A stretch of 64,000 bases of DNA, from positions 1,488,001-1,552,000 of the forward strand of contig NZ_CP035730.1 in assembly GCF_012222305.1 (NCBI RefSeq), read 5' to 3'. Under the pieces are notes generated by a model. That model searched no databases. It saw only the letters and a program-made list of their open reading frames with translations, and was not told the origin of the DNA. Made by a program: the position numbers and the translations under genes. The stretch comes from Sulfolobus sp. S-194 (lineage in GTDB: Archaea > Thermoproteota > Thermoprotei_A > Sulfolobales > Sulfolobaceae). Below are positions 1 through 21,400 of the stretch, in pieces (position 1 is the first letter of the stretch; every line of letters starts with the position of its first letter).

Positions 1-2396
1 CCGTAGTTCTTTACCACATAGTAATAAAGAACAGTAGAATATAACTCAATTCTTCCGGTAGGTGTAGCAACTGGTAAATCCCATGGCATTCTTTCGTGAT
101 TATTAAAGTATTCATCAACAGTACGGATTATTAATACTCCGTTATTTCTCAATATCTCATACATTTTCTCTACTGGCACACCAGTCTTCTTTGATAAAAA
201 TGATAGCTTAGCTTCTCTCCAAGCCTTTGCAGTGAAGCTTCCCCAAGGTGGATATCCATTATTCTGGATCAAGTATTGTTGATATTTAGGCATTTCCTCA
301 TTAATTATTTGTTTGAACACTTCTTTATCAATAGACACGGAATTTGCCATTGCGTTAATATAGTCGTCACCTTTACCAAGCATATATGCAAACATAACGA
401 ATAAGTCAAGACCGTTAGCAGTGTTAGGATAAAGTACAGGTATAGCTTGCCATCTCCCTCTTAATGTATAATCCATTGCTGGACCATCATATCTAAAAGC
501 TTCATCTCTCTCTAGGTATGACACATCTGGGAGAATCACATCAGCATATAATGTGTCTTCAGTGGGCTGAATATTTATATCAATATAAAACGTATTCTTT
601 AAAATTTCTTTATACTGATCCCACTGAAAGTTAACTGGAGTGCCTCCATATGACATTACAGCCTTTATCTTGTATGGTTGACCGTTCCATACCACTTGCC
701 CTTTAACGGCTTCATAGACTCCAGAATCGACATATAATGTGAAAGCACCAGCTGGTTTCTTCCCTTGTTGGACTAAATTTTGATTATAAACATATTGTAC
801 CGCTGGGAATCCAGTAGACCAGAAATTGGGATTATTGTACGTATAAATGATCGCAAAAATTGTAAGTAGATTACCTGGGAGGTCAAGGAGAGGGACTTTC
901 GCTAAGATTTCGGGTCTCTGAAGCAATATTCCAGGTTTTGAGGAGCCTGAGGAGATTGAGGAATTATATACCTCAATTACTTCCTTCATCCCTTCTCTAT
1001 ATTTTCCGGAGTACACCCAACCTCCTCTTACATCAATATTTCCTGTAAGAGCCATTATCATTGCTGTTGCCTTCCTAAATTGCGGTGAACTATCTCCCCA
1101 GAAACCTTTTAATCCCGTAACTATCAACATGGGTTTTGTAGTCGATATCCTATAAGCAAACTCTTGAAGCATGCTTAGAGGAACATCACAGACTTTTGAC
1201 GCATATTCTAATGTATAACTACTTACACGATCAGCTAAAAACTGAAAAACAGTCCTTATTTTTTTACCGTTTACCTCTAAGTCTGGTGCAAACAATGCTG
1301 GCCTTATTTCAGTACCATCTACAGAATACATGTTAGTATTAGTAAATGGCGGAACTTTTACTATTTGCCTTGTTATTTCGTCATATACGTAAAAGGCTTT
1401 AACAGTGCCATCTTCATAGTCCTCTTCTAGGAGTTTTACTACACCGTTTTCTTCATAAGCTAAAAAAGGAGCATTAGTATGATATCTTACAAAATATTCA
1501 TCATAATATCCGTTCTGAATTATGTAATTAATTATTGCCATAGCTAAGACTAGGTCTGTACCAGGCTTAATTGGAATCCAAAGGTTCGCCTTTGATGCAG
1601 CTTCTCCAACTCTAGGGTCTATAACTACAACATAAGCACCATTGGCTATGCCTTCACCAAATCTTACACCTCTGTTAACGAATATTCCAGCTGAGAATGC
1701 ACTAGTTCCCCAAGACACTATTAGCCTAGAATATGTCATATCATCCATTATGTCGCTCGCATGAAGATCAAAACCCCCTATTACATATCCTACAGACTGC
1801 TGGAGAGAGAACATACAACTTTGCATTGGTGTTCCATTTATATTAGGCATCTGAGTACCTAAAGTAAAGGGAATGAAGTATCTCTTATAATTAGCACATG
1901 GCATACCTCCACCAATTAGAATTACTTCCCAAGGCTTAATATCGAGCTCCCTAAACTTCTGCATAATGTAATTAATTGCCTCTTCCCATGTAGCCTCTCT
2001 AAAACTCCATGTTCCTTTTGGTCCTGTCCTTATTAATGGAGTCTTGATTCTGTCCACATTATAGGTTCTAAATATGCCGGCTCTTCCTCTGGGACAAATC
2101 TTCCCCTTATTTAACGGGGATAATGGGTTTCCATCTATCTCTATAGCCCTTATGTAAGTTCCTTTCTTTTCTACCCTTACTAGAATATCACAAGTAGATG
2201 AACAAAAGGCACAAACATTAGGTACATACGAATATTCCCATCCTGGTTGTGGAGTCTCATAATCTACTGGTGGAGCTAACAAGTTAAAGTTGAACTTACT
2301 TGCAGCATAAGCGGCACCACTACCTACAGCTGCTAAGGCCGATGCCTTTAAGAAGTCTCTCCTGGTTAAGCGGATTGATTTGTAATCTTGTGTCAT
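1..2396 (-). CDS. sreA: Molybdopterin oxidoreductase, sulfur reductase catalytic subunit SreA-like (3' end outside window)
   Basis: The 798 visible codons encode a catalytic subunit of the polysulfide/thiosulfate/sulfur reductase type. A twin-arginine signal (TRRDFLKA, residues 11-18) directs export in folded form. An N-terminal [4Fe-4S] site follows with C62, C65, C69 and C101. C194 in MQSCMF is a candidate Mo ligand. Near the window edge the frame reads [10 protein letters not shown], typical of the C-terminal molybdopterin domain, so the protein continues beyond base 1. The start ATG at 2396 lies about 25 bases from a TATA-like box, so the mRNA is probably leaderless. The role as sulfur reductase is inferred from family and from the hydrogenase operon next door, as known in Acidianus. 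A related oxidoreductase with another acceptor is possible. Confidence 0.8.
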
Positions 2397-3272
2397 TATG
2401 ATGTATTATGCAATCTACTTTATATTATCCAGTTTATAATATCTAAGTTTTAACTCATTAACTCTGTTAAATAATTACTATTTTTACTATATAAAATGAT
2501 GTACTATGTATTTTTAATTTGATATGATTAAACATTATGGACCAGTAAAAATAAATAGATATATTAACTAAGTTAATAAATCAAATAGAATTTATGTAAG
2601 AATCTTAAGCTCTAAGCTGTATCTACTTATTGCACCCTATAACGATAAAAAAAGAGATTTACATTTTTTTTACTTTATCAAATCTGGGCTATATTCTTAA
2701 ATAAATATAGCCATTCTTCTCACAAAATAACATTTCTAAGAAAAAGAAAATAGTCGTATTTACCAGATTATGAATACTTACTTTGATATTTGTCCTTTAT
2801 TTTTGTTTATACGAATAGATGATAGGACAACAGCATTAATATAAAGATTATATAATCTAATACTAAATTTCTTAAAAACTATATAACCTTATAGTTCTAT
2901 GCAAAATGCTCTTCGAACCACTCAAGGAGTCTGCATCAAGCTCTTTCTGAAGTTTCACTTTCTTCTTAAGTTTTATTCGAAATCTGATCTTTTATGTAAA
3001 TCATAGAAAACCTGTCTCATGATTTAAGTTATAGAATAAGTCATTAAAAACCATCATTAGATAATTGATTTTAATTAATGCTTCTTCTTTGTCATATCAA
3101 ATATCTCCCTAATACTTCCATCTTAAGATAAAGAAAAGAGTATAAAACTAAAATTAACTTTCTTCTCTTTAATATACTTAAGAACTTTTCTGATATCCAG
3201 CTGAGTAGACTTCTTATCCATAAAAATATCTGTTTACTTTATTGATTGGTAAACCTAGGCTATGTACACAAA
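2397..3272. other. Non-coding gap between sreA-like gene and hydrogenase operon
   Basis: These 876 bases are very AT-rich and contain no convincing gene. Short minus-strand frames, for example one of 32 codons starting near 3222 (MDKKSTQLDI...), have no recognisable family and no clear ribosome site. Apart from the TATA box close to 2420, no repeat, tRNA or hairpin stands out. Confidence 0.5.
2417..2429 (-). promoter_or_regulatory. TATA-like promoter of the sreA-like gene
   Basis: Read on the minus strand this is GGATAATATAAAG, with the AT core about 25 bases upstream of the ATG at 2396. That is the spacing expected for a leaderless transcript in Sulfolobales. The assignment rests on position and composition only. 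Confidence 0.5.
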
Positions 3273-14452: not shown

Positions 14453-14978
14453 CTAATTACTGATGTAAAATGAAGGGTATAGGAGGACTAAACCCAGTAC
14501 GTTAGAAATTATTAGCATTGTTTTCCTTCCCAAAACGTCTGATAATACACCGCTATCAAATACGAAAATTGAATCCATCAAGCCCATTAATAACGTTGCT
14601 AAAAAACCCAATTGCACCGGTAATATCTCTAACGATTCCATAATAGCTGGAACTAGTATTGCACCAACGTAAAATATGGTTCCTAAAGAACCGGCTAATA
14701 AAGTACCTATTAAAACCTCCTTCCAGTATTTCTTAAATAACTCCTTTGAGGGCAATTGCAAAATCTCGTTGTTCTCCTTAACCTTTTCAAAGGCTTTAGT
14801 TTCTTCAACTTTTTAGCCTAATAATGAGACCTATAACTGTTAAGAGGAATGAGAGTAGGAATGGTATTCTCCAACCCACATTTAACATAAAAGTTGGGGA
14901 AGTCAAAGAGGAGAGGATTAGGAATACCAGGCTTCCCAGAATTAAAGCAATTCCAACAGTGGATTGTATTAAGTTATC
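14453..14978 (-). pseudogene. MFS transporter fragment (metabolite:H+ symporter type), truncated and frameshifted
   Basis: Two reading frames together give the middle of an MFS transporter. Residues QSTVGIALILGSLVFLIL and GWRIPFLLSF (about 14820-14978) come first, then EETKAFEKV and LLMGLMDSIFVFDSGVLSD (14453-14812). The frames join if one A is removed from the T5 run at 14810-14814 (A5 on the coding strand), giving LKVEETKAFEKV, the usual MFS central loop. The N-terminal third and C-terminal half are missing and there is an in-frame TAA at 14979-14981, so this is a dead fragment. Confidence 0.75.
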
Positions 14979-15086
14979 TTATGTCAAATAAGTGTCTATT
15001 ACGAAATAGTATATTATAAAAATGTCCGTGAAATTAAGAAGAGTGAATATGATCAGAATGGTTGTTATTTCTTTAGGTAACTTCAT
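14979..15086 (-). other. 35-codon membrane-helix ORF at the junction of two transporter fragments
   Basis: The frame encodes MKLPKEITTI followed by one long hydrophobic helix and ends at the TAA that precedes the MFS fragment. Its first 20 bases (15067-15086) are identical to 15341-15360 inside the neighbouring transporter gene, where they encode the same MKLPKEI. It is probably a leftover of a duplicated or recombined transporter rather than a gene. Confidence 0.4.
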
Positions 15087-15159: not shown

Positions 15160-16316
15160 TTACTTCAGCACATCTCTAAACGTCAATAAAGCAACTATAA
15201 CATAACCAAGTAAGAGTAGTGAGGCGATTATTACAACGTCCTTTTGTCTTACTACTAGCTCTAGGAAAGATAACGAAATGTTCCCTAAAGCACCGAAAAT
15301 ACTACCTAAGGTAGCGAGTAAGCCGTTATAATATGCGATAATTTCTTTAGGTAACTTCATCTGGAAAATAGGATTTGTAAATGAGCTGTAAAGGGTTAGG
15401 AAAAGCCAATAGAATACTATAAGGATCAAGGAAAACTGAGGCTGAACAAAAGCTAGAGAGGCCAGAAGTACTACGGATATAATACCCCTAAAAAATAGAA
15501 AAATATAACGCAAACTATTTCTGTATTTTTCCACGTTATTTGTAGTAAAAATTAAAAGTGAAATACTGCCATATACTATAGTTATTGAATAATACACCAT
15601 GTAATTGAGGATGAAATATGTTTGTGCGAAAAACACCAAGAAGACGGGCAATAATCCGCTTATAAAGTTTGCGAAAAGTATGTCCACGAGAAAGAACATC
15701 ACTGCCCTATCCTTCTTAATCGCTGAAATCGAAAGGGAGAAAAGGAGTTCCGCATTACCAGTACCTTTAGGGTATTTGATCTTAAAAATTAAAGGAGTGT
15801 GTATTAATAGCATAAACAGTCCGAGGACTAGAAGTAAAGTTCTTAAGCCTATTACGAAAAAGGTTAGGTACAAGAACACGATCGCAGAAGCAGTTCTTAT
15901 AATGTTTACAGCGATCCATACAACTCTGTATTCTGATGAGGAACTTACCAAGTTCCTTAAAACCTTTATGTGATTCGGCCCCTTAAAAGAGTGTATAAGT
16001 AGGATTACAGTGTAAGCTAGGAAAATAAAAGCTGGTTCGGAAAGATAAAATAAATAGAAGAGTAAAAAGGAGATTCCGCTCGACAGTGAAAGTATTAGAT
16101 CGTACCCCCTAGTGTTTACTATATAATCTGATGTCCTATCACGTAAGAAATGCTTAGTAAACCAGCTACCAGTAAGAGGTTTTTAGTCTGTAAGAAAAGG
16201 TAAGCGGGGAATGCTACTGAAATAACTATTACGGGTTGTATAAAGTGTTGTAAAAAGTAAAGCCTAACGTTGGTATTAGACAATATCCTACTCGGCTTCG
16301 ACTCCAACAGCCTCAC
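15160..16316 (-). pseudogene. MFS-like transporter gene with one frameshift, in the radical SAM cassette
   Basis: A GTG at 16316 opens a frame (RLLESKPSRIL, then helices) that ends at a stop near 16120. The protein resumes in another frame with SDYIVNTRGYD and runs without a stop through about ten more hydrophobic helices to 15160. One missing base near 16128 (in GGACATCAG on the coding strand) would restore a 385-aa, twelve-helix transporter. The total length of 1157 bases is one short of a multiple of three, in agreement. It overlaps the restored end of the radical SAM gene by 29 bases, so the two were translationally coupled. It was probably the exporter or importer of the cassette. Confidence 0.65.
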
Positions 16317-17303
16317 CTAACTCGTGCAATCTAGGACAGCCCTTACTTAAGGGTGATAAGGATATATTTAGCCCATCTGTGGATCTTAGTTTCATCAATC
16401 ACTATATTCCCATCTTCTTCTATATAGCCTACTGATTCCTCACCTATCATTACAGTTAGAGGACATTTGAATAATTTACCATCATTTCTTATAATTATAG
16501 AAAATGGATACAATGCGTCACATAAATCATCCGTTGCTGGTGTGCCATCAATTTGAAGTAATGTATTTTTATCCGGTCTATTTAAGCCCAGTTGCTCAGC
16601 ATACATATATAATTCTCGGATTATTTCCATTCTGTTTTTAGGTTCTATTACTTTTAGGTTTTTATCGTTATCTCCACCAGATCTAGTCACTGGGAAAAAA
16701 GTGAAGTAATATCTTTTATCTCTGCTAAAGTACTTAGACGCTAGGTCTAAGAATTTCTTAATCGAGTCTATATTATCTGGCATTACGTTTGATCTTATAA
16801 ATACGAAGAACTTATCATTTACATTTCTCGTTTGAATAAGGTTTTCGAATATCCTATCAAATGTAGGCTTACCATTTAATAATGGTCTGAGTTTATCGTG
16901 AGCATCTTTATAACCATCTATTGTAATCTGAAATATTTTTACATTTTTTCTAACAGAATCTTGAATTTTGTTATATCTAAGAGGTAGCCATTAGTTATAA
17001 TCTCACCAACTATGTCTATTTTATATGTTTTTGCCATTAAATTGGCGAAATCCATAATATCTTTAATAGTTTTAAAATCTAGTAAAAGGCTCTCCTCCAT
17101 ACCATCTGATATGGACTTTCTTGAAAAAACAGTCTTAATATTATTTTCTAGGAATAATTTTATTCTTTTTATTATTTCTGGTGTAGTTAGTATATTTCTA
17201 ATTCTAAAATGATCATTTTCATAACAATAAATACACCTAAAGTTACACCAACTAGACGGAATAATAATTATTAAAAAATTTTGTTACCTTGCATTTCTAT
17301 CAT
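16288..17303 (-). pseudogene. Radical SAM/SPASM-type maturase, broken by three single-base indels
   Basis: The frames read in order as a radical SAM enzyme. They give MIEMQGNKIF, then PSSWCNFRCIYCYEND with the CxxxCxxC cluster motif at about 17235-17255, then EIITNGYLLDITKF. The last blocks are SVRKNVKIFQITIDG with HDKLRPLLNG, and an auxiliary-cluster tail (LCDALYP, FKCPLTV, LSKGCPRLHELG). Restoring the frame needs one extra T near 17275, one extra G near 16962 and one T fewer near 16352. The net change makes 1016 bases into 1017, an exact 338 codons plus stop, which supports a single ancestral gene. The cysteine-bearing tail suggests a SPASM/Twitch domain, as in peptide-modifying enzymes. 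It follows a 63-codon peptide ORF by 55 bases. Confidence 0.75.
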
Positions 17304-17358
17304 ATCATCCACCTAGCTTACATATATTTATTTTCGTTACTAGGCTTCATGCGCATAT

Positions 17359-17550
17359 TTATGCTGTCCGTAACGGACAGATATCTATGTTATTAGGCTT
17401 CGGAATTTTAAAATCTTGTATATGCCAACATGAACTATATAAACCGCCACCACCTGGACCAGCCTCACACACTATTTCACTCGCTCTCTTCATCTCTAGG
17501 TTTTGGTATATTTCTTTATATATTGGCTCGATTTGTGATACATTTTTCAT
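17359..17550 (-). CDS. 63-aa Cys/Gly-rich peptide, possible RiPP precursor
   Basis: The ORF starts at the first in-frame ATG (17550) and encodes a Lys/Glu-containing first half (residues 1-27, KNVSQIEPIYKEIYQNLEMK) and a second half with CEAGPGGGGLYSSCW and a final ICPLRTA. Cysteines lie at 28, 41 and 58. A leader plus Gly/Cys-rich core just before a radical SAM/SPASM gene is the usual order for ribosomally made, modified peptides. No known precursor family is recognised. The frame is intact although the downstream enzyme gene is broken. It could still be a chance ORF or a remnant. Confidence 0.45.
   Translation of the reverse strand: MKNVSQIEPIYKEIYQNLEMKRASEIVCEAGPGGGGLYSSCWHIQDFKIPKPNNIDICPLRTA
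17364..17380. repeat. Perfect 8-bp palindrome with one-base loop at the end of the peptide ORF
   Basis: CTGTCCGT-A-ACGGACAG covers the last codons of the 63-codon ORF (encoding part of CPLRTA). Its GC content stands out from the AT-rich surroundings. It could be an operator, an RNA hairpin separating peptide and enzyme translation, or an insertion target. No second copy was noticed in the window. Confidence 0.6.
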
Positions 17551-17794: not shown

Positions 17795-18826
17795 TTATTT
17801 GGGCTCATAAGGCTTATTATTATACCAAACACTCCATACAACCCTAGCCAACTTCCTAGCCAAAGCAGTGTATAACTTCCTACCGTGAAGTCTATTCCTA
17901 TGAGACTCGTAAAACCTCAATAAGGTTAGATTCCTAGAATAATTCACCTAAACCAAAAACAAACTACGCAAATACTTACTACCCCTCTTGGAAATCCCCC
18001 TACTTATTACAGCTCTTCCACTCCTCTCAACACCACAATAAGCCACAAAGGACTCTGGTTTAGGAAAACGCCTAATATCACCAACAATACCAATAATAAT
18101 ACCAGCTGCAAGCCTCCCAATTCCCGGGATTGTTAATAAAACGTGATTATCCGGTACTTGTTCCTCGATCATCCTCCTAACTTCTTTCAATCTCTCTTTA
18201 ATCTCAAGAAGGTTTTTAGCCAGGACTTTGATCTCCTCAAGTACTAGGGGAGTATATTCTAGGTTGTAGAGTTCTTCTTGTGTAAAATCTCCAACCTTTC
18301 CTTATTTATCTTATCATTGTCACTTACTAGGAATAGTGCCCTCTTTAGCCTATTCTTGTATTTCGTCTCTATGTCCTTGAGGAAGAGGTAGAGTGTTACT
18401 AGTTCTCTTAAGGGGTTGTAATCGTACTCCTTAGCCTTGTTAACCATGTTTTCTAATTTTTCTGCACGTAAAAATCTGTTTTCTTTCCCCTAAACTCCTT
18501 TTCTCTTGATAACACGTTTGGGCTGACTTGTAGTACTCTTATCCCTTGAAGTATTGTGAAGGCCTTATTGCGTATACTCCGGTAGGCTCTAGGACTATTG
18601 TGCAAGGTTTCATCTTGAGGATTTCCTCATAACCCTTCTTACTGTTCTCGTATCTTCTCACCCTCCCCCTACTTGTAATTAAATGTTCTTTTGATACATC
18701 TATTCCTATTACCCCTACCTCTTTATCACACCTATATTCGTGAATTTTATCACAATGTTCAGTCCGATGGTAGGGGTTTGTCACGTCACACTCCGAAGAC
18801 TGTGCTTCAGATATTGCCTCGACCAT
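17795..18826 (-). pseudogene. IS110-family transposase, multiply frameshifted
   Basis: Pieces of one transposase lie in order on the minus strand. The N-terminal RuvC-like DEDD region has GVIGIDVSKEHL and IVLEPTGVY (18539-18740). Next come GIRVLQVSPNVLSREKEF and AEKLENMVNKAKEYDY, then TQEELYNLEYTPLVLEEIK. The C-terminal Tnp domain has LLTIPGIGRLAAGI and ISKRGSKYLRSLF, and the end is NYSRNLTLLRFYESHRNRL...EPK. At least four frame changes separate them (near 18540, 18465, 18275 and 17950), so the element is dead. The true start is probably near the GIDVSK motif. No terminal inverted repeats are seen, as usual for the family. Confidence 0.85.
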
Positions 18827-19562: not shown

Positions 19563-20204
19563 TTACTGATTTTTATTTGATAAATAGAGTAAACTAATGA
19601 TTTCTTCGATATCGCGGTGCTTTTTATACATATTGGCTAGATGAGGAAAATTAAGCCAGCTTAATATTGAGGTAACATTGAGAGGATTTTCTTTGAAACT
19701 TGCAGAGTCATAATCTATTATATAGACCCTATCAGGTTTAACTATCACATTTTTGTAAGGCCTGGCTAATTCCTTATGTTCGATCTTTTTATATTCCAAT
19801 TCTTTTGCTTTTCTAAGTAAGTCTACTATAACATCTATTTTTTCATCCCTAGTTAAATGTCTTCCATTAACATATTCCATAATTATAAAATTTCTACCGT
19901 AATTGTGCACTTTCGGAGCAACTGGGAATGCTTTTATCTGAATCTTAGCTTCTATTTCTAACGTTTCTTTAGGAGAATCACTTCTTCTAATTTTTATTAC
20001 CTTATTATCATCAACAAGAACCACTATTCCTGTTTTTCCTTTCCCTATAACATTTACCTTACCTAGATTTACAGATCCAAAAGAGTGAAGTTCTTTTATA
20101 CCGTGTTCTATTAATTCTCTCTCAATATTTTCATCATATCTTGGATAGATAAAATCTCTTACTTTAACCAACTTGGTGTTTTTCTCAGAAATGAGTTTAT
20201 CCAA
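19563..20204 (-). CDS. Predicted RIO/Bud32-like Ser/Thr protein kinase (COG2112 type)
   Basis: A small archaeal protein kinase of about 200 aa. Recognisable kinase elements are a glycine loop ([13 protein letters not shown]), the ATP-binding lysine in NKVIKIRR, a conserved glutamate in ETLEIEAKI, the hinge FIIMEYVNG, and the metal-binding [10 protein letters not shown]. The catalytic HxD region is degenerate ([13 protein letters not shown]), as in other members of this reduced family. A TTG at 20204 overlaps the cca gene by 46 bases. A TTG at 20171 is an alternative start. It is co-transcribed with the CCA-adding enzyme and ThpR, but its substrate is unknown. Confidence 0.75.
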
Positions 20205-21400
20205 GGGTCATCTACTTCCTCATTAAGCCATTGTAATTCATAACTAAACTTTTGCTTAAAGGATAAATTCTTTTTTATTATTTCCTCCACCGTGTACTTT
20301 CTTCTCTTAATAGAATATAGCCTACCATCTTCACCAATCCATACGTTCTCGTTTTCTTCTATGAAGTCTTTTACATTATGAAGATAAAAGTAAGGGCCCA
20401 CATTTAGATAATACTCACCAATGCTCTTGCTTTCCAATTGTATACCAATAGTTATATTCTCAGCATCCCCCCAAGCAGAAATATCAATAACTCTATAGCC
20501 TTCATGACTTATCAATGTTTTTAACTTTTCCACATTTCTCCAGACTTGACCCCATACTATATCTTCTACAGTACTTTCCTCAATTTTCACTTTCACAAGA
20601 AGAATGTCACCTTTTATTGTTTGCCTACCTGGTTTAGAGGGAAAAAAGAATTCCATAGAAGGTTTCTCAAGATAAATTTTTGAAGCTAAGGCAAAAGTTG
20701 CTAAGCTTTTTAATGATACAGCTGATGATGCATTTCTTTTAGGATCTACAGGATCAGGAATAATTAGTGGGGAATCAAATTCCTTCTTTGGTTTCACTAA
20801 TTCTATTCTAACTGGTGGACGAAACTTTGACGCATTTCTAAGAGCTTCTTTAAATGAACCATAATAGATTATTAAAAGCTCAGTAACATAACCAGAAAAC
20901 CCTTTAACCTTGATCTCTGCCCCATATACTCCGATTCCTTTCAGAAATTTCTTTAATAGTCTTACTTCATCTCTCCCCTTTTCATCTAAATGAGAAATTA
21001 CATACTTGGTGTGGAAAGGAGTTCTATCTGCTGCAGTAATCGCTTCTTCTCCAGATTCTATGTCTAAAGCCGGAACTATATCTATCTCGACATCATCAAT
21101 ATTCACTATCAAATAAGGATGTTCAGCATAGGCAATTTTATAGTTTAAATCACGGAATCTTTCTATTAATTCTTTTAAAGCCTTCTCTTTAAGGTACTCT
21201 TTACCAACACTTTTAGGGAAAAATATGAAAATATCTATATCAGTATCTCCTTTTAGCCATGTACCTTTCCTGAATGAACCTTCAATTTCAGCATGATAAC
21301 CCTTTAGTCTATCTAATATAATCTGGGCTTTTTCCCTTAACTTCTCTTCGTCTTCTTTACTAGGTTTTATTCTCTTCAGAACTTCCTCCTCTATTGTCAT
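20159..21400 (-). CDS. cca: CCA-adding enzyme (class I tRNA nucleotidyltransferase)
   Basis: Adds or repairs the 3' CCA of tRNAs without a template. This is needed here since neither tRNA gene in the window encodes CCA. The 413-aa length is typical for the archaeal class I enzyme. The nucleotidyltransferase signature [18 protein letters not shown] begins at residue 41, with catalytic aspartates D54 and D56, and a third carboxylate lies in VEIDIVPAL. Its start overlaps the thpR gene by 41 bases and its end overlaps the kinase gene, making a compact RNA-processing operon. Confidence 0.96.

Follow-up and report, generated by a model that had tools for sequence, protein, structure and literature searches.

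The locus described here raises a simple question: is a small open reading frame (ORF) next to the broken remains of a radical SAM gene and of a transporter gene what is left of a RiPP pathway in a member of the Sulfolobales, and if so, of what kind? The window, that is, the whole stretch of DNA analysed, comprises 64 000 nucleotides of Sulfolobus sp. S-194, a thermoacidophilic archaeon (contig NZ_CP035730.1, positions 1 488 001 to 1 552 000), and all positions below refer to it unless another locus is named. The copy used for comparison belongs to a genome of the same family and a different genus, designated G191.

Layout of the cassette

The features of the cassette, all on the minus strand, are as follows.

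17428..17550 (-): precursor peptide, conserved part (putative leader and core, residues 1–41), from the ORF, the G191 alignment, a dN/dS of 0.18 and the position of the Cys codon
17359..17427 (-): run-on of the peptide frame, residues 42–63, past a TGG codon; G191 has a TGA stop there
17327..17386 (-): insertion of about 59 bp, absent from G191 and carrying the palindrome CTGTCCGTTACGGACAG; its ends are uncertain by a few bases
16288..17311 (-), start approximate: putative radical SAM/Twitch-type peptide maturase, pseudogene with five 1-base indels relative to G191; Pfam Radical_SAM on the intact orthologue
17224..17247 (-): CNFRCIYC, the CxxxCxxC motif expected to bind the [4Fe–4S] cluster; its cysteines are kept in 35 of 36 alignment rows
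15160..16316 (-): putative MFS-type exporter, pseudogene with a 25-base frameshifting deletion near 16130; MFS fold predicted for the G191 orthologue

The full peptide ORF has 63 codons (17359–17550, minus strand). The maturase frame is broken in several places. For the transporter, one frame is open between about 16130 and 15160, preceded by a different open frame that begins at 16316. The three frames announced in the preliminary description are thus all present on the minus strand where it placed them, with the segments CNFRCIYC, FKCPL and KGCPRLHELG in the expected parts of the enzyme. The 29-base overlap that it reported between the maturase and the transporter extends from the GTG start of the transporter (16316) to the maturase stop (16288) and is the same in the intact G191 copy (1441–1469 of locus L010). 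Its twelve-helix transporter corresponds to the frame ending at 15160, and the G191 orthologue is also 12-helix-like. On one side the cassette is flanked by a seemingly decayed IS110-like transposase, recognized by eye (17795–18826, minus strand), and on the other by pieces of another broken transporter (14453–14992, minus strand); with such neighbours the whole stretch looks as if it were decaying.

Intact relative and lesions

The 146-residue C-terminal piece of the maturase was compared with 214 genomes of the order and found a single orthologue, in G191, with 86 per cent identity. In this genome both genes are whole, encoding a radical SAM protein of 342 aa and a transporter of 394 aa, and a small ORF precedes them. 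In nucleotide alignments with G191, the window maturase carries five 1-base indels and the transporter one 25-base deletion; the peptide has lost its stop codon and is separated from the maturase by a 59-bp insertion. The inserted sequence occurs only once in the genome of the window, which leaves an origin from a mobile repeat unsupported.

The possibility that these lesions are sequencing errors and that the window copy is functional has some appeal, because several indels affect one base and lie close to homopolymers and the dN/dS ratios between the window and G191 are still low (0.17 for the maturase piece and 0.14 for the transporter pieces, by Nei–Gojobori style counting). A 25-base deletion, a 59-bp insertion and a lost stop are nevertheless atypical of such errors, and most other radical SAM genes of the same genome are free of stops; we consider this explanation extremely improbable. 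Intact sets with an adjacent peptide are found in G191 and in a further genome, G201, as the preliminary description had anticipated for a RiPP-like cassette inactivated here and whole in relatives. The G201 pair is in locus L012 (enzyme 982–1974, precursor 846–971), and a Thermoplasmatota pair is in L143 (enzyme 1178–2122, precursor 1063–1167). The window very probably contains a decayed RiPP-type cassette of peptide, radical SAM enzyme and exporter.

The precursor peptide

The peptide behaves as a protein-coding gene under purifying selection. Over 41 codon pairs between the window and G191, dS is 0.97, dN is 0.17 and dN/dS is 0.18; a second pair of peptides, from G203 and G202, gives a dN/dS of 0.13. 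The window copy was lost late enough for this signature to survive in it.

The G191 peptide ends in GGGSDLYSAC, directly followed by TGA, so that its frame stops at the codon after 41. The window peptide reads GGGGLYSSC, with Cys41 encoded at 17428–17430; TGG comes next, and the reading frame stays open into the insertion: 13 codons (TGG included) can be aligned to G191 before the 59-bp insertion begins. The ORF of 63 residues thus makes most sense as a peptide of 41 residues followed by a fortuitous extension. Over the 13 codons from the G191 stop onward there are six differences, five of them at third positions. Judged from this bias, the peptide may once have been longer in the window lineage, with either TGA or TGG as the ancestral codon; this would weaken for this lineage the rule, described below, that precursors end in Cys.

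Residues 28–63 had been proposed as the region that relatives should match. This proposal stands up to Cys41; residues 42–63 are run-on past a changed stop and through an insertion, and the weight once given to these last 22 residues was misplaced. The idea as a whole was to be given up if intact homologues had no small ORF beside them or if the peptide frame was not conserved; in fact the homologues have such an ORF, and conservation of the frame extends to codon 41.

The enzyme

The G191 orthologue matches Pfam PF04055 with 61.8 bits (cut-off 29.5) and contains the CxxxCxxC motif. Its tail has three conserved cysteines (C266, C285 and C327), compared with 7–12 in the RRE-bearing enzymes used for comparison. 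A SPASM domain, with at least seven C-terminal cysteines and two auxiliary clusters, is thus more than this protein can hold, and the SPASM label of the preliminary description was too generous; by its cysteine pattern the C-terminal domain is Twitch-like. There is likewise no space for an N-terminal RRE (PqqD-like, about 80–100 residues), since CxxxCxxC starts at residue 24, and no such Pfam domain was found on the G191 orthologue.

These two traits go together in a tree of 95 relatives, built by a quick method with SH-aLRT as its sole support measure. With one bacterium among them, the archaeal enzymes form a group (support 93) that lies within a clade of 43 bacterial and archaeal members (support 99). 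In this clade, CxxxCxxC mostly starts at residues 16–60, too early for an RRE, and nearly all members have three tail cysteines. The enzymes outside the clade mostly have 73–192 residues before the motif and 7–12 tail cysteines. The predicted structure of the G191 enzyme (pLDDT 87) is closest to CteB, followed by anSME, ChlB and SkfB, and CteB also comes first when solved structures are searched with a sequence profile. Leader reading by these enzymes appears reasonably likely to be RRE-free and based on a motif in the leader.

Distribution of the family

Relatives were sought with profiles of the intact enzymes. Related enzymes are present in six of about 31 Sulfolobaceae genomes, in three of 390 sampled Thermoplasmatota genomes (the phylum of G215, a Thermoplasmata metagenome-assembled genome (MAG)) and in seven of 295 genomes of the Micrarchaeota group (the phylum of G214, a Micrarchaeota MAG), so that the family is not the Sulfolobales matter that it was first taken to be. 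A small ORF lies directly ahead of the enzyme gene in nearly all related loci. In intact copies the candidate precursors have 34–85 residues; examples are MEIDEYGRTFGVDEEIGEFFDDVNGNCPVVNFIC, MILDQFGRIKETKGINENTIEYLILANQLTGPILKCGNFIC and, at its C-terminal end, SFDKFGRIEAFNPKVSKAIMQKMSKVKLIQCLEGKC. No Pfam or NCBIfam model matches the archaeal precursors.

Two features characterize these peptides. A C-terminal Cys is found in 15 of the 18 candidate precursors and in 22 of 764 other small ORFs of the same loci; a leader motif, hydrophobic-[DN]-x-x-G-[RKVI], occurs in 15 of the 18 and in five of the 764. The Fisher values for the motif and the Cys rule (7e-25 and 4e-19) overstate the surprise, because the 18 precursors were picked by eye, both features were noticed in these very sequences before being counted, and loci that are related do not count as independent; even so, the contrast is large. 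The window lineage has a divergent leader (QIEPIYEEIY) that departs from the common motif. The last two core cysteines are 2 to 13 residues apart, the shortest candidate ring being C-VI-C, and no one ring geometry fits all the cores. Among bacterial loci of the same enzyme clade, an upstream ORF with the motif was found in 15 of 25, compared with one of 46 RRE-bearing controls. This count allowed E after the G, a widening made after bacterial examples had been seen, and the check is therefore partly independent.

The organization of the loci varies. The Micrarchaeota loci and a second type present in G203 and G202 are without an adjacent MFS gene. In this second type (L013:696–839 (-) and 1018–3026 (+); L016), the candidate peptide and the maturase are encoded on opposite strands, and the exporter is replaced by a 367-aa protein that has a weak match of the MfnF kind. 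One locus has two tandem precursors (L148:1124–1452 (+)), and one Thermoplasmata genome, G215, contains three loci of this kind. In L151, a leader-like LSFDKFGRLVF is found in frame on the reverse strand upstream of CxxxCxxC, apparently fused to the N-terminus of the enzyme; a separate precursor is absent from this locus. A plasmid or phage home for close relatives was considered and dropped, as the search returned merely distant bacterial relatives (<60% identity), some on rhizobial plasmids. Those on Sinorhizobium and Bradyrhizobium plasmids (H1–H5) have 30–34% identity, Sinorhizobium meliloti being the best, and are annotated simply as radical SAM protein.

A separate and far more conserved pair exists in the Sulfolobaceae, consisting of a short ORF a few bases ahead of a radical SAM/SPASM protein of about 400 aa. 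In the genome of the window, the enzyme is at L008:994–2211 (-) and the ORF at L008:2216–2326 (-); the pair is also found in L025–L035 and L048. The ORF has 24–36 residues in most loci and a near-invariant tail, GRC[NG]YSPSWG[EDQ]; no model matches this peptide. The enzyme has its best NCBIfam matches, below cut-off, to CefB and the geopeptide maturase. These proteins of about 400 aa (L025–L035) were regarded as a distinct family, paired with another peptide, and put aside. Another Sulfolobales family (L036–L039) may be a cousin of this pair: ORFs of 37–43 residues, with a hydrophobic IVLE-type start and an NFCxxxCxxVC core, precede radical SAM proteins of about 450 aa.

Exporter, possible transfer and decay

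No Pfam model matched the G191 transporter. Its predicted structure, of moderate confidence (pLDDT 69), has LmrP and MdfA as nearest folds, which places it with the MFS, and Pfam MFS_1 is found in seven of the 11 transporters compared. Sequence divergence is much greater among the transporters than among the maturases, as if different exporters had been recruited.

The cassette maturase piece is 86 per cent identical to its G191 counterpart, and the neighbouring core gene (ORF 20159–21400, which from its sequence we take to encode a CCA-adding-enzyme-like protein) only 62 per cent; this difference suggests that the cassette moved horizontally between genera. Decay is frequent. The genome of the window carries a second cassette (L015/L130; G000:C1 ~974700–977200) with a 38-residue Cys-terminal peptide, a maturase with one in-frame TAA and an intact transporter of 412 aa. 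The copy of G188 has a frameshift, and gutted remnants are present in G203 and G201; no remnant of the window peptide was found in the gutted G203 locus (L134).

Proposed mechanism and alternatives

The window cassette is probably a dead RiPP operon with an RRE-free, Twitch-type maturase, for which a thioether is the likeliest chemistry. In intact copies, the precursor would be made just ahead of the enzyme, which would recognize its leader without help from an RRE domain. A 5'-deoxyadenosyl radical, generated at the radical SAM cluster, would remove a hydrogen from a residue of the short core stretch that is flanked by two cysteines. Meanwhile the open site of an auxiliary Fe–S cluster, itself held by just three protein cysteines, would be occupied by the thiolate of a core Cys, the C-terminal Cys being the likeliest. 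Such an open site exists in Aux I of CteB, where the crystal shows it taken by a substrate Cys, and open coordination sites are known from MoaA and SkfB too (PMC6231123); together with the three tail cysteines, this makes a substrate thiolate the natural candidate for the fourth ligand. A sactionine- or ranthionine-like thioether ring would then close, the leader would probably be removed by a housekeeping protease (no protease or immunity gene was noticed), and the MFS protein would export the resulting small cyclic peptide, plausibly for antagonism or signalling.

The nature of the chemistry is the point at which alternatives weigh most. The modification might instead be an epimerization, a Cys-independent C–C cyclophane or a change at the C-terminal Cys, the Cys pair serving for a metal or a disulfide; the variable Cys–Cys spacing would suit this, and radical SAM enzymes of similar fold (EpeE, PqqE, ChlB) do many reactions. 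The closest solved structure is nevertheless that of the thioether-forming CteB, a tail with three Cys could accommodate a substrate thiolate, and a C-terminal Cys that hardly varies would be difficult to account for if no thiol chemistry took place. We therefore regard a non-thioether product as unlikely, and mildly favour a Cys thioether. A somewhat less likely explanation is that the peptide is a scaffold for a small redox cofactor or another non-antibiotic metabolite, as in the PQQ and mycofactocin pathways, with the MFS protein moving the product. A single modifying enzyme with short precursors, an MFS protein instead of an ABC peptide exporter and a core ring as short as C-VI-C would agree with this. 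Patchy presence in about six of 31 Sulfolobaceae, frequent decay and variable cores are unlike a housekeeping cofactor, however, and no oxidoreductase that could act as a partner was seen immediately next to the intact operons; patchiness and decay would be better explained by an ecological trait that can be dispensed with, for instance a peptide for antagonism or signalling.

It is very improbable, finally, that the small ORFs serve the enzyme gene as translated leaders or regulatory elements, the enzyme itself acting on a lipid, a tRNA or a cofactor. Their position directly upstream of the enzyme gene would allow it, and some Sulfolobales radical SAM enzymes do act on lipids. Calditol synthesis is mentioned in PMC12350378. 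Against this stand the purifying selection at the amino-acid level, the leader motif and Cys end common across phyla and domains, the two tandem precursors of L148, the candidate precursor on the other strand in L013/L016 and the apparent in-frame fusion of a leader-like motif to the L151 enzyme.

If the thioether RiPP reading is extended to the whole bacterial and archaeal RRE-less family, a short hydrophobic-[DN]-x-x-G-[RKEVI] leader would be read directly, a single three-Cys auxiliary cluster would hold a core Cys (C-terminal in archaea) at its open site and a thioether would be made; among acidophilic archaea and Micrarchaeota the family would constitute a radical SAM RiPP class, traded between genera and often discarded. 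This wider picture is plausible, but we stop short of favouring it.

Comparison with known systems

Filing under TIGR04463, Clo7bot, PapB, SCIFF, CefB or the geopeptide maturases was rejected, since all scores are far below the curated cut-offs and the enzyme is thus outside all these named families. For the G191 enzyme, the best NCBIfam match is TIGR04463 (144.6 bits, cut-off 525), with PapB NF047865 at 94.5 bits (cut-off 340) and SCIFF TIGR03974 at 74.3 bits (cut-off 425). TIGR04463 is also the best match for the archaeal members and for most bacterial clade members scanned; in G191 the match begins at model position 78, and the N-terminal part of the model is missing. The bacterial clade members are likewise claimed by no NCBIfam model. 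The top-scoring NCBIfam relatives are for the most part peptide maturases. No paper was found in the open-access literature on TIGR04463, TIGR04280, or the geopeptide and Cys-every-fifth NCBIfam names.

CteB (SCIFF, TIGR03974; PDB 5wgg/5why) is the nearest enzyme of solved structure by predicted fold (TM 0.67) and by profile search, and similarly joins a radical SAM domain to an auxiliary cluster domain acting on a Cys peptide. It has an RRE and a two-cluster SPASM domain, whereas the present enzymes have neither. With PapB, the maturase of a ranthipeptide, the family would share Cys-based thioether chemistry. The target of PapB is CX3D (PMC9413430), and four Thermoplasmatota cores contain a C-x3-N (CPVVN, CTIRN, CKVIN and CSVLN). 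The window and G191 cores are without CX3D, and the window lineage is also without CX3N. In SkfB, MoaA and BtrN, as in the present enzymes, the SPASM domain is shortened to a Twitch domain with a single auxiliary cluster site; SkfB differs by its RRE and by its CX33CXC spacing, compared with C-x18-C and about 41–43 residues to the third Cys here.

Haloarchaeal lanthipeptides are likewise RiPPs from archaea, made by an unrelated enzyme class (LanM). Bulk predictions of archaeal radical SAM RiPP clusters have been made with antiSMASH, and a 2025 survey reports haloarchaeal lanthipeptides as the only characterized products, with no archaeal radical SAM RiPP among them (PMC12144867). The relatives found here are small enzyme/precursor pairs from thermophiles and acidophiles and are directly testable. 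As the loss of the RRE goes together clade-wide with three cysteines in the auxiliary domain and a common leader motif, the clade bears on how RRE-less maturases recognize leaders and on whether the open auxiliary-cluster site binds a substrate Cys. It represents a compact, little-described family of peptide-modifying enzymes, and the system appears to work like a thioether-forming RiPP maturase system that lies, by their own cut-offs, outside the named families.
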